Part shown: positions 2,662 through 25,866 of the stretch, one piece after another
How positions within the stretch are numbered: the first letter of the stretch is position 1
How the letters are laid out: every line of letters begins with the position of its first letter
DNA from: Spirochaetaceae bacterium
Lineage (GTDB): Bacteria > Spirochaetota > Spirochaetia > Treponematales > Treponemataceae
DNA: 64,000 nt
Assembly (NCBI GenBank): GCA_017614995.1
Contig: JAGAAX010000011.1
Span: 62,001 to 126,000 of the forward strand
Reading direction: 5' to 3'
Position numbers and translations under genes: made by a program
The notes under the pieces: model-generated
The model's input: the letters and a program-made list of their open reading frames with translations, nothing else
Database searches by the model: none
Told to the model about the DNA's origin: nothing

Positions 2662-3852
2662 ATGGCGCAGTCACGTCACGAAAAAAGTTATTTGTTTATA
2701 ATTGGAATTCTAATAATATTGACAGCTCTGTCTGTCATATTGTTTTTTGCTTTGCAGACAGACCCGATTGCAAGCGTCCTTGAAAACAATCAGCTTTTGA
2801 ACGTTCTTTTTGTCCTTCAAAAAGACGGAAAGCCATTGTTTACAGATGTTTTCATTTATTACCCGGAATCTGAACGCGGCGCGCTGTTTAATATACCGGG
2901 AAATACGGGCTTGATTTTGGGTTCTTTGGACAGGGTTGACCGCATTGACGCTGTTTATACTGAAAAAGGAATTGAAACATATAAAAAAGAGATAGAAGCT
3001 CTTACAGATATAACAATTCCTTTTACAATTGAAATGAGCATTGACCAGTTTTCTGCATTGACTGACCTGCTCGGCGGGCTTAATGTTTTTATTCCGTCTC
3101 CAATAGATGTTGTGAACGGCGATGTACGGCATATTCTTCCGTCAGGCTCAGTTGACCTTGACGGTGAGAAAATGGTTTCGTATTTGTCTTATGCAGATGA
3201 CGAAGAAACTTCTGACAATATTCAGGACAGAATGGAAGGCGTAATGGTAGCTTTTCTTCATGCCTTGAATAAAAAATCAACATTTGTTCTGAACAAAAAT
3301 GTTTTTCCGGTTGTTTCGCGTTATTTAAAGGCAAATATTGATAACAAGGCATTGTACAGATTAATTTCGCTTATTTCTGCAATTGATTCTGAGAGGCTTG
3401 TTCCTCAGACTATAAGCGGAAAACGCCGTGAAGTAGACGGGCAGGTTCTTCTCTTTCCTGACTATAACGGCGAGCTGATTAAAGAGGTGTTCAAGCAGAC
3501 AATGATTTCAATTGCATCAACGGGCGGTATAGCAAATGACCGCGTTTATGTTCTTGAAATTCAAAACGGAACATCTCAGCAGGGTTTGGCACGCAATACA
3601 GGCGGACTTTTGCAGAGTTACGGCTATGACGTTCTTAGTATGATTAACGCAGACCGTGACTATGACAAAACACAGGTTATAGATCATATTGGTAATGCAA
3701 AGGTTGCCCAGGCAATTGCTGATATTATCCATTGTAAGAACATAATTACAGAAGAAGTTCCTAAAGATGCAAATTCAACTGAAAGTGAAGATTCACCAGT
3801 TGATTTTACGATTATTTTAGGACGTGACTTTACCGGCCGTTATGTCCGGTAA
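2662..3852 (+). CDS. LytR-CpsA-Psr family membrane protein
   Basis: A 396-residue protein with one N-terminal membrane anchor (about residues 10-32) and a large external part. Residues of about 55-250 resemble the LCP domain, whose members attach glycopolymers to peptidoglycan (IPGNTGLILG, IDQFSALTDLLGGLNVFIP). Residues of about 285-355 match the LytR C-terminal domain (VLEIQNGTSQQGLARNTGGLL). A strong GGGAGGG site precedes the start. The gene lies between yqeK and rsfS, the usual spirochete position. The LCP part is divergent: canonical arginines around the pyrophosphate pocket are not obvious, so catalytic activity is uncertain. Confidence 0.82.
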   Translation: MAQSRHEKSYLFIIGILIILTALSVILFFALQTDPIASVLENNQLLNVLFVLQKDGKPLFTDVFIYYPESERGALFNIPGNTGLILGSLDRVDRIDAVYTEKGIETYKKEIEALTDITIPFTIEMSIDQFSALTDLLGGLNVFIPSPIDVVNGDVRHILPSGSVDLDGEKMVSYLSYADDEETSDNIQDRMEGVMVAFLHALNKKSTFVLNKNVFPVVSRYLKANIDNKALYRLISLISAIDSERLVPQTISGKRREVDGQVLLFPDYNGELIKEVFKQTMISIASTGGIANDRVYVLEIQNGTSQQGLARNTGGLLQSYGYDVLSMINADRDYDKTQVIDHIGNAKVAQAIADIIHCKNIITEEVPKDANSTESEDSPVDFTIILGRDFTGRYVR

Positions 3853-3866
3853 GCATGGAGGATTTT

Positions 3867-4214
3867 ATGAAAACTATTAAAGAAAAAGCATTGGAAATTG
3901 CACAGCTTATGGAAGATTATAAAGGCGAGAATGTAACTGTTATTGATGTGTCTCAGCTTAACAGTTGGACTGACTATTTTATTATAGTTACGATAAACAG
4001 CGCTACACACTGGAAAGGCCTTTATAAATACGTCAAAGACTATGTTAAGGCAGATGATGTGCTTGAAATTCATGTGCCTAACAGAAAAACCCCTGACGGA
4101 GATGACTGGAACTTGATTGATATAGGGCCGATTGTAGTTCATCTTATGTCAAAAGAAGCGCGCGAATTCTATGATCTTGAAAAGTTGTGGCATGGCGGCG
4201 AGGTTCTCCGCTAA
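3867..4214 (+). CDS. rsfS: Ribosomal silencing factor RsfS
   Basis: RsfS binds ribosomal protein L14 and blocks subunit joining under starvation. The 115-residue protein shows the family core LNSWTDYFIIVTINSATH, then GDDWNLIDIGPIVVHLM and the terminal FYDLEKLW. The start at 3867 is preferred over an ATG at 3855 because GGAGGA (3857-3862) lies at a workable distance upstream of it. It is the last gene of the rpmA-rsfS cluster. Confidence 0.95.
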   Translation: MKTIKEKALEIAQLMEDYKGENVTVIDVSQLNSWTDYFIIVTINSATHWKGLYKYVKDYVKADDVLEIHVPNRKTPDGDDWNLIDIGPIVVHLMSKEAREFYDLEKLWHGGEVLR

Positions 4215-22568: not shown

Positions 22569-24276
22569 TTGAAAAAGACCAGCTTGTTTTTTATAACCGT
22601 CTATCTCTTTATATTAACAGTAATTACGTCGTGTGGGGGGGGGTGGAGGAGGCGGTGGTTCGGTGTCTTTTTCTGGAGAGCAGACGCTCCACAACGGTGG
22701 GGGCGGTGGCGGCTGGGGCAAAGGCAACCAGACCGGCAACGGCTTTGCTGGCGGTGAACCTGTTAATTATGAAGACGATTCGCTGTTTGCCGCATTTCCT
22801 CCGTTTTTCATTCCTATTGATCATATTGATATTTCTCTATACATAAATGATACTTTTATTGATGGTTTGACAGGGCTTAATTCATCTACGAAGAAAGATG
22901 TACTTCCAGTTATAAAGCCTGGTGATAATGTATATGGAACTGCACTTATAACGCTACAAGATGGTTCTGTGCGTAATGCAATTTTTCAAAAGACAACTCT
23001 GGGTATTGATACCAAGCTTGCATTGTATGCTGAATATAAATACAAAATCGTAAGTGATAATGAAGAAGTATATGAGGATATATTCACCACAACAGCAGGC
23101 ATTGATATTCCTTCTGAATATTTGCAAGGCTCTTTTTATGGATTTGATGATTCTACGGTAAATGCTTTTTCTGACGGAAAAGACACTTATACGGTTTCCG
23201 GCAACAGAATTGTTTCGCCTGCACCTGGAGATAAAATCCTTACACCTGTATTCAAATGTGAGCCTGAAGTTAGTTTTAGCGGAACAGGTGTAACGGCTGT
23301 TCCTGGTGCAGAAGATTCGTATGTATTTGATTATGTAGAGAATCAAGATGGTGTAAGCATGGATGTTCAAGCACCATCTCTGACAGGAACGACAGCAGTA
23401 TGTACTATCGATGGAACTTCGTTTACGTTAAACAGCGGTGATAATGCATATAACATGATTCTTGAACCAGGTGAACATATATTAGTTATGAATATTTCAG
23501 GAAGCGGCAATTGTGCAGCACAGACTTTTACAAAAACGATTACAGTATATGTAAAACCTGATTATAAAATAAAAGATGCTGATTCATGGAATGAATCTAC
23601 TGGTAAAATTAAATATCGTTATCTTAAACACGGTGCAACTATGCCGTTTGTTATGACAAGTGAAGCTGCCGCAGCATTCCCTTCTGCGATAACTAATATG
23701 GATGTAAAAGTTGACGGAAATAGTTGTTCTTATTCAGGCGGTTCATCAACAGGAAGTCCTGTTGCGAAAGATACAACACATTCTTTATATTTTAATTTTG
23801 AAGGTCCTTACTGCATTTTTGATTCTGTATCAACCAACATTAGCATTGCTATGAAGCCGATAAGGGTACAGGTTGCCAAAGTGGTGTTTAGAATGAATGT
23901 AACTGTCGATGGTGATTTTGGTCTTAGGGGCTATCTGCATCTTGGTAAAAATAGTGGTAATTGGCAGACTATAGGAGACTTTGGAGGTACTGGACTTGGC
24001 ATGAGTGGAGGTGACAACGATATTACAGGAAGTTGTAATCTCGTTTATGTAACGCTGGATTCACTTAATGAAAATATTTCATATGAAACCGATACGGCTG
24101 ACTATGATCAATATTCAGGAAATGATCAACTGGGATACGGTTCTACGAGTGTATCTCTTCAAGATGCTGTTAACGGAAGAAATTCATCAGATCAGTATTC
24201 GATACCATTACATACAAGTGGTGCTGATGGTTCTAGTGATAGTACTTTGACTGTCAAATTGATTGATAATTATTAA
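22569..24276 (+). CDS. Surface lipoprotein, frameshifted at a G9 tract
   Basis: A TTG start at 22569, with AAAGGAT upstream, opens a lipoprotein signal peptide ending VITSC. The next bases are nine G residues (22635-22643). Reading straight through leaves the frame. Removing one G (or adding two) joins the signal peptide to a 540-residue frame that begins GGGGGGGGSVSFSGEQ and runs to 24276. The mature part is beta-rich, without a recognised domain. No internal ribosome site explains translation of the long frame alone. This is either a phase-variable lipoprotein captured in the off state or a homopolymer sequencing error. A terminator follows at 24471. Confidence 0.8.
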
Positions 24277-24499: not shown

Positions 24500-24763
24500 T
24501 TAGGCTTTTGCTTGTAGCTCTTCTGCAAGCTTCTGTACAGTTTCAAGCGGAAGACCAGTACAACGTGCTATCACATCTTCTGTTACGTTTTCCATGAGAA
24601 GATTTCGCGCAGCTTCAAGCTTGGCTTCGGAGCGTCCTTCTTCTTTGCCGATAGCAATTCCATGATCTTCGCCCTGCTTGTAGCCATCTTCTTTGCCGGT
24701 GTTATAATAGCCCTGTGTTATCATGCAATAATCCATGTATTCTTTTTGTGCACGTGCTGTCAT
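24500..24763 (-). CDS. Free-standing Rpn C-terminal tail protein B
   Basis: An 87-residue protein equal to the last third of the Rpn-type nuclease at 25015. It starts MTARAQKEYMDYCMITQG exactly at an internal Met of that nuclease, then has GKEDGYKQG-type repeats and a C-terminal helix GLPLETVQKLAEEL. AGGAAT lies upstream of the ATG. Its first 102 bases (24670-24771) match the nuclease gene with two mismatches. A 98-base block (24561-24658) matches tail A with one mismatch, so it is a mosaic. It is the last gene of a three-gene operon. A regulatory or antitoxin-like role is inferred from E. coli Rpn proteins. Confidence 0.75.
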   Translation of the reverse strand: MTARAQKEYMDYCMITQGYYNTGKEDGYKQGEDHGIAIGKEEGRSEAKLEAARNLLMENVTEDVIARCTGLPLETVQKLAEELQAKA

Positions 24764-24769
24764 TTTTAT

Positions 24770-24982
24770 CTATTCCTGATTTTTTAGACTTTCTGCAAGC
24801 TCATACACCTTTTCCAACTCAAGCCCGGTGCAACGTGCTATCACATCTTCTGTTACGTTTTCCATGAGAAGATTTCGTGCAGCTTCAAGCTTGGCTTCGG
24901 AGCGTCCTTCTTCTTTGCCGATAGCAATGCCTATTTCTTTGCCTTCTTCCATTATGTCAAAGTCGTGGATATTGCATCTCAT
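24770..24982 (-). CDS. Free-standing Rpn C-terminal tail protein A
   Basis: A 70-residue protein with a unique 11-residue start (MRCNIHDFDIM), then EEGKEIGIAIGKEEGRSEAK, LEAARNLLMENVTEDVIA and a final helix GLELEKVYELAESL. The last two blocks align with the tail of the neighbouring nuclease. AGGAG lies seven bases before the ATG, so translation is likely. It begins 32 bases after the nuclease stop and ends 6 bases before tail B. Confidence 0.7.
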   Translation of the reverse strand: MRCNIHDFDIMEEGKEIGIAIGKEEGRSEAKLEAARNLLMENVTEDVIARCTGLELEKVYELAESLKNQE

Positions 24983-25014
24983 ATACTCACTCCTGAACTG
25001 TTCGTTCTCTTTGG

Positions 25015-25866
25015 CTAAACTTCTATTTCAAGTTCTTTAGCAAGTTCGCGTACTTTTTCGAGAGAAAGCCCTGTGATTTCTGCGATTTGTTCTATAGTAC
25101 CGAGGTTCTTCAAAAGCATATTTCGCGCAGCTTCAAGTTTCGCTCGTTCTTCGCCTCTAGCTTCACCATCTTCAACGCCCTGCTTGTAGCCATCTTCTTT
25201 GCCGGTGTTGTAATAGCCCTGTGTTATCATGCAGTAATCCATGTATTCTTTTTGTGCACGTGCTGTCATTTTTATCTTTTTCTCCCGCTCTTTGAGCTTT
25301 TGGCAAAGGTCGCTTTCTGCGTTGTCTGTAAGCAGAAACTTCAAAAAATCTGACCTGGCTTTTGAACCGGCATCTTTCCAACTACTGCAATTATAAAACA
25401 CTTTCAATGTTCTGTCTTCAAGCTTGACTGAATTATTTTCGCGGCAGGTGTTCTCAAATGTGTACACAGGTAGACCTTTCTTGAATAGGTCGTCAAGGCA
25501 GATGAAGATTACGATGTTCTCTTTCAGCTTTGAATATGGGTGACCTTTCAAGAGATAGTCAACGTCCATAAGGCTCTGATAGTAGCGGCTTCGTTTACGC
25601 AATTCCTTATAGAGTGTGGTCTGCATTTCAATGTCAAAGTCGTGCTTGCCGTCGTGCGTGTGTACATCAAGGCGAATGCCTCTTGCGTCCGGTGCTGTCT
25701 GTATGGTCTTTTCCGGCTCTGGATATGAAAGACTGCCGATTTTGATGTCGAGCAGTATTTCCAGCACGCTCTTGCACAGATCCGGATCTTCCATAACTTT
25801 TGCAAACATAAAATTGTCTGAACATGTCAGCTTTTCAAACGGCTTAGGTTTTATGAATTTTTCCAT
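25015..25866 (-). CDS. Rpn/PD-(D/E)XK nuclease-family protein (transposase-like)
   Basis: A 283-residue member of the PD-(D/E)XK nuclease transposase (Rpn) family. The N-terminus FEKLTCSDNFMFAKVMEDPD is characteristic. The likely catalytic core is RLDVHTHDGKHDFDIEMQ, with Asp, then Glu-x-Gln. The C-terminal 80 residues carry charged GKEDGYKQG repeats and a helix GLSLEKVRELAKEL. An internal Met starts the segment MTARAQKEYM, the same start used by the separate tail-B gene. A strong AAGGAGG site precedes the ATG, and a 12-base palindrome ATATAGCTATAT (25885-25896) sits upstream. Rpn proteins are known as DNA-degrading, RecA-independent recombination factors. Confidence 0.88.
   Translation of the reverse strand: MEKFIKPKPFEKLTCSDNFMFAKVMEDPDLCKSVLEILLDIKIGSLSYPEPEKTIQTAPDARGIRLDVHTHDGKHDFDIEMQTTLYKELRKRSRYYQSLMDVDYLLKGHPYSKLKENIVIFICLDDLFKKGLPVYTFENTCRENNSVKLEDRTLKVFYNCSSWKDAGSKARSDFLKFLLTDNAESDLCQKLKEREKKIKMTARAQKEYMDYCMITQGYYNTGKEDGYKQGVEDGEARGEERAKLEAARNMLLKNLGTIEQIAEITGLSLEKVRELAKELEIEV

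Follow-up and report, generated by a model that had tools for sequence, protein, structure and literature searches.

The Rpn genes of E. coli and C. difficile encode, besides the full-length nuclease RpnL, a small protein RpnS that is translated from an internal start, and the RpnS of E. coli binds RpnL and blocks it (Zhong et al. 2023, PMC10327210). Separate genes can also encode RpnS: in E. coli, rpnE is followed by such a gene, ypaA, and rpnC by a second rpnCS. The tagged ypaA protein was detected, and RefSeq calls ypaA a pseudogene. Four-residue repeats are the hallmark of RpnS; one extra repeat abolished the inhibition in RpnC, and no cross-inhibition was observed between the small proteins of RpnA and RpnB (Zhong et al. 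2023, PMC10327210). When K-12 was checked, ypaA was found 12 nt behind rpnE. The homology begins exactly at the internal ribosome site AAGGAGAGATTAATG with an identity of 84%, and ypaA has one four-residue repeat more than rpnE and a diverged end.

The CDI and Rhs polymorphic toxin/immunity systems have variable C-terminal modules, displaced modules that are kept downstream, and orphan immunity genes. Their likeness to the genes described here is in the working only, and the proteins are unrelated to Rpn.

We analysed a window of 64,000 nt from a Spirochaetaceae bacterium (assembly GCA_017614995.1, contig JAGAAX010000011.1, positions 62,001 to 126,000), where an Rpn-type nuclease gene (N) is followed by two detached tails (T1 and T2). 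The initial annotation did not recognise this layout. It has been published for E. coli, and since Zhong et al. (2023, PMC10327210) and the rpnE-ypaA pair show the same, a nuclease with a free tail was already known. The rpnE-ypaA (rpnES) and rpnC-rpnCS pairs resemble the N locus in that a full-length Rpn gene is followed by a detached tail copy, and rpnE-ypaA resembles T2 in the breakpoint, the additional repeat and the diverged end. The E. coli pairs have one free tail of the same gene, whereas the treponeme locus has a tandem pair, with one tail from another subfamily and T2 a mosaic. The described RpnL/RpnS systems (E. coli RpnA-E, RpnP2 and C. difficile Rpn) share the nuclease family, the internal tail start, the four-residue repeats of the first tail helix and probably the C-terminal helical bundle. 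They differ from the treponeme genes, here known from sequence alone, in which the distal block has discrete alleles that reassort between subfamilies. New are the two tandem tails, the tail of foreign origin and the exchange of distal blocks among subfamilies. No further paper on free rpnS genes was found in a literature search that covered subscription journals poorly.

The nuclease gene and the two tails

The presence of an Rpn-type nuclease with two tail genes behind it was confirmed by three open frames on the minus strand, each with a profile match (Table 1). The genes follow each other in the order N, T1, T2 with spacers of 32 nt (N-T1) and 6 nt (T1-T2). In the profile search, N scored 121.4 bits against TIGR01784 (cut-off 52.1, residues 19-275) and 42.5 bits against PF12784 (cut-off 27.4). 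N belongs to the Rpn nuclease family (TIGR01784/COG5464, PDDEXK_2). The motif residues D67, E80 and Q82 are present, and their columns are invariant in 7 paralogues. When the N model was searched with Foldseek, the PD-(D/E)XK enzymes McrBC, MspJI, PaqCI and Kpn2I were listed, none below E 0.001. T1 and T2 cover only the last 50-75 positions of TIGR01784, a profile with 20 matches in the source assembly of 3.05 Mb.

Table 1. Coordinates of the rpn features in the window
Feature	Position	Strand	Basis
N: full-length Rpn-family nuclease of predicted PD-(D/E)XK type (RpnL-type), 283 aa	25015..25866	minus	TIGR01784 5.9e-35, PF12784 8.5e-11
Candidate start for an RpnS of N (84 aa), internal ATG, Met200	25267..25269	minus	Junction Met and GGGAG at 25282-25286
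Distal variable block of the N tail, MLLKNLGTIEQIAEIT, allele B	25072..25119	minus	Block table
Remnant of a type II (subfamily II) Rpn gene between N and T1, 33 nt, AKENEQFRSEY	24983..25015	minus	Same DNA inside L002, L008, L071, L077
T1: detached tail, 70 aa, subfamily II head MRCNIHDFD, distal block allele A	24770..24982	minus	TIGR01784 positions 223-272, 2.7e-7
Distal variable block of T1, LLMENVTEDVIARCT, allele A	24827..24871	minus	Block table
T2: detached tail, 87 aa, N-subfamily head, middle as T1, allele A	24500..24763	minus	TIGR01784 positions 206-273, 4.5e-8
Distal variable block of T2, LLMENVTEDVIARCT, allele A	24557..24601	minus	Mosaic comparison and block table; LINLGVSLDIIAQAQ instead in the syntenic G001 tail

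Chance open frames were ruled out for T1 and T2 by the TIGR01784 matches and by the recurrence in relatives. The break-up of one nuclease gene by a frameshift was also ruled out, with the N tail complete and duplicated by the two tails. Genuine frameshift break-ups of one nuclease gene were observed at L108 and L162.

Internal starts and ribosome sites

Both downstream genes were noted at the outset to have ribosome sites, and these were found as AGGAG 7 nt upstream of the T1 ATG and as AGGA, a weak site, 10 nt upstream of the T2 ATG. T1 and T2 are free-tail genes directly behind an rpn gene that start at an internal start with its ribosome site. Within N, Met200 has GGGAG 12 nt upstream (-7.4 kcal/mol), which is a long spacing.

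The in-frame ATGs of 83 treponeme-family Rpn genes or gene parts were scored for anti-Shine-Dalgarno pairing with a threshold of -6 kcal/mol. A strong ribosome site was found at the junction Met in 89% of 82 junctions compared to 6% of 425 other in-frame ATGs (p 9e-33, for paralogues that are not independent). About a dozen head sequences were seen, each with its own junction ribosome site (MTAR, MRCN, MVET, MNAK, MAWG, MNLHDRD, MIQT, MLAQ, MSKI, MTLQ and others). Similarly, 69% versus 5.6% were obtained with a second set of 51 genes, taken from a separate scan of named relatives that partly overlaps the first. These results suggest that the treponeme-family Rpn genes have the internal start and ribosome site at the tail that characterise RpnL and RpnS. 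The intragenic RpnL/RpnS antitoxin arrangement is extended to the spirochaetes with strong sequence statistics.

Origin of T1 and T2

The start of T2 corresponds to Met200 of N, as had been proposed for the second tail, and the next 31 residues are identical to N with two synonymous changes. The middle of T2 is that of T1 (37 identical codons, 5 synonymous changes), and its end is unlike both N and T1. T2 is a mosaic of an N-type head, a T1-like middle and a different end.

The head of T1 is typical of another Rpn subfamily in the same genome (L002, L008) and has 96-97% nucleotide identity to L077/L071. The 33 nt upstream of its ATG overlap the N stop codon by one base, hold the AGGAG at 24990-24994 and still read as they do within L002 and L008. 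Because the head and these 33 nt match such genes, the AGGAG of T1 is the ribosome site that a full-length gene of subfamily II carries internally. T1 is of foreign origin: its head is of subfamily II and the nuclease in front of it of subfamily I. The proposal that both tails are copies of the tail of the nuclease in front therefore holds for the first part of T2 (the 31 residues of its head) but not for T1 with its subfamily II head and 33 nt.

In G001, a T2-like tail adjoins the same flanking gene, and the contig begins at the second codon of this tail. The two tails differ by one amino acid outside the distal block and by 10/15 inside it. T2 is probably the older tail of the site.

Free tails in related genomes

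The nuclease with free tails was observed again in other treponemes. At G005:C101, G004:C28, G000:C50, G001:C47 and G019:C5, free tails follow immediately on another rpn tail or nuclease, two of them in tandem at G001:C47. They are uncommon behind an intact nuclease, with one clear case (L214, the same G004 locus) among the 51 full-length genes of the named set. Since the tail-only layout recurs in related genomes and is always broken at the internal start, it is not due to chance. Stand-alone rpnS genes appear to arise repeatedly, and they can come from a different Rpn subfamily.

On balance, T1 and T2 are probably stand-alone RpnS-type genes. A rather unlikely alternative is that the free tails are functionless by-products of recombination between rpn paralogues, recent and intact only by their youth. 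The tails swap freely among the subfamilies, decayed or frameshifted rpn genes are common nearby (L108, L133, L157, L164), and T2, syntenic with the G001 tail, may be a left-over. The free tail of G004 (L116, G004:C28, reverse strand 3837-4106) is open throughout, but its start codon is ATA instead of ATG; one copy may thus be dead. However, where free tails adjoin an rpn tail, the breakpoints lie at most about eleven codons ahead of the internal start and never inside the nuclease domain. The start at the junction Met with its ribosome site was kept in T1 and at G005:C101, G001:C47, G000:C50 and G019:C5.

The selection on a free tail was followed in a unit of a subfamily III nuclease and a subfamily II free tail that is common to G004 and G005. 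The unit is homologous over ~1050 nt including the junction and sits among different genes in the two genomes. For the free tail, an omega of 0.10-0.15 was obtained over about 0.6 synonymous differences per site, and for the nuclease an omega of 0.08. So few amino-acid changes in the free tail were reached in 0/3000 neutral simulations. Provided that the tail had become free before G004 and G005 diverged, as the junction, repeat number and block common to both suggest, this speaks for a selected protein. Purifying selection, seen in two related species on a free tail like these, argues against debris and, together with the ribosome sites, supports the initial annotation in its view that the tails are selected genes.

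Some further arrangements were seen. L140 (G019:C5, reverse strand 1-1044) has a nuclease domain whose own tail is missing from the junction on (FRG followed by CIKNFS and a stop), and then two free tails, the first with the strong ribosome site TAAGGAGATTATATG. L126 (G004:C54, 2938-3180) is a solo tail left after an internal deletion, in which the first nuclease codons, the internal start and its ribosome site are retained. At L204 (JAGCFW010000018), a contig titled as an Alphaproteobacteria MAG has two treponeme-type rpn genes, which is probably a binning error. When phage records were searched with T2 by tblastn, only six weak matches of <50% identity were found; Wolbachia WO phage records were among the weak T2 matches. 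Scanning viral contigs with the nuclease alignment brought up two full-length Rpn nucleases with a MIQTVKQNEQ head (L279 and L280, IMG/VR), and no sign of free tails in phages. PADLOC gave no useful match.

Four-residue repeats and distal blocks

The length from the internal Met to EAARN was in register modulo 4 in 49/49 tails with four head types. It is 44 residues in N and 48 in T2, i.e. one four-residue repeat more. Behind EAARN, a distal block of 15-16 residues occurs in about six recurrent alleles, which were assigned by pattern and are approximate. N carries allele B (LKNLGTIEQIAEIT type), whereas the block common to T1 and T2 is absent from N and is of allele A (MENVTEDVIARCT type).

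In 53 tails from across the genus, head type and allele were independent (mutual information of 0.28 bits versus a shuffled mean of 0.35), and each of the six alleles was found in two to five head types. Nuclease domains of 85-97% identity were observed with tails of only 31-60% identity, and domains of <45% identity with tails of 75-88%. The distal blocks reassort freely among the nuclease subfamilies. Their independence of the subfamily suggests an exchangeable specificity module.

The differences between the tails bear on the idea that T1 and T2 specifically inhibit N, i.e. are two detached copies of its own antitoxin, which we consider unlikely. The three genes share the same order and probably the same operon, the head of T2 is identical to that of N, and the RpnS of E. 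coli blocks its cognate RpnL (PMC10327210). However, T2 has one repeat more, T1 has another head and both have a different distal block; in E. coli an extra repeat abolished the RpnC inhibition and RpnA and RpnB showed no cross-inhibition (PMC10327210). An inhibition of N itself by T1 or T2 is doubtful on sequence grounds; for T2 because of the one-repeat and distal-block differences, of which the former sufficed to abolish the inhibition in RpnC. By analogy, if the RpnC repeat rule holds, T2 should not block N, and T1 with its other head even less. Free tails with a matching head never shared the repeat number with the resident nucleases examined, for which no significance is claimed, as same-head nucleases within one genome rarely match either.

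The free tails might also be a reservoir of cassettes that change the pairing specificity of full-length nucleases by gene conversion. Closely similar nuclease domains with divergent tails and the reverse, the six alleles unassociated with the head type, and the replaced 15-residue block as the main difference between T2 and its G001 counterpart would fit this. Yet an exchange between full-length paralogues alone would yield the same mosaics, and a silent donor needs neither a selected open frame nor a kept ribosome site; this role, too, is improbable.

Structure of the tail

The T2 model shows a C-terminal three-helix bundle (40-57, 62-69 and 73-86) of the HTH type with a mean pLDDT of 66. 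The structural comparison was led by TrpR-like rows with Z below 8, which may mean a common arrangement only. The tail profile matched RpnA (7TH0) with E 0.22, and 7TH0 was not among the listed rows of the fold search with T2, the model of which is weak. The T2 model and the tail profile are consistent with an RpnS fold, the three-helix bundle of 7TH0, but are no proof of it. T1 and T2 also gave a weak match (E about 1e-4) to NCBIfam NF047948, the Wolbachia Wmk model, probably through a shared HTH-like motif.

Proposed function of the free tails

For T1 and T2 as stand-alone RpnS-type genes, the layout, the internal-start signals, the origin and mosaic make-up of the tails and the selection on a comparable free tail in relatives are read from the DNA; their expression, binding, inhibition and targets we infer. 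N is a full-length nuclease and has, besides, a candidate internal start for an RpnS-type small protein of its own. Recombination between the tails of rpn paralogues would have detached T1 from a gene of subfamily II and T2 from the subfamily of N, in both cases at the internal start. They would probably be co-transcribed with N, with T2 coupled to T1. As helical tail proteins, both may pair up with a full-length Rpn protein through its tail and keep the nuclease in check. Since the repeat number and distal block of T1 and T2 differ from those of N, Rpn proteins with a matching tail (another paralogue, an earlier version of N or an incoming allele) would be likelier best targets than N.

This raises the question of what the free rpnS genes target, given a repeat step against the neighbour that should abolish pairing, a point that the E. 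coli work is not known to address. A tentative and rather improbable answer is that the treponeme Rpn tails form a mix-and-match pairing code of head, counted repeats and about six distal blocks, in which the detached tails would be orphan immunity genes, like those of the polymorphic toxins, kept against Rpn nucleases other than the neighbour.

A neighbouring gene

Close to the tails, at 22569-24276 on the plus strand, a lipoprotein-like gene was observed in which the frame changes, at a run of 9 G, between the signal peptide (TTG start, ...VITSC) and the body. In the paralogues L193 and L196 the run has 8 G and is read in frame. Because 9 G splits the frames and 8 G reads through in two paralogues, this gene family looks phase-variable.
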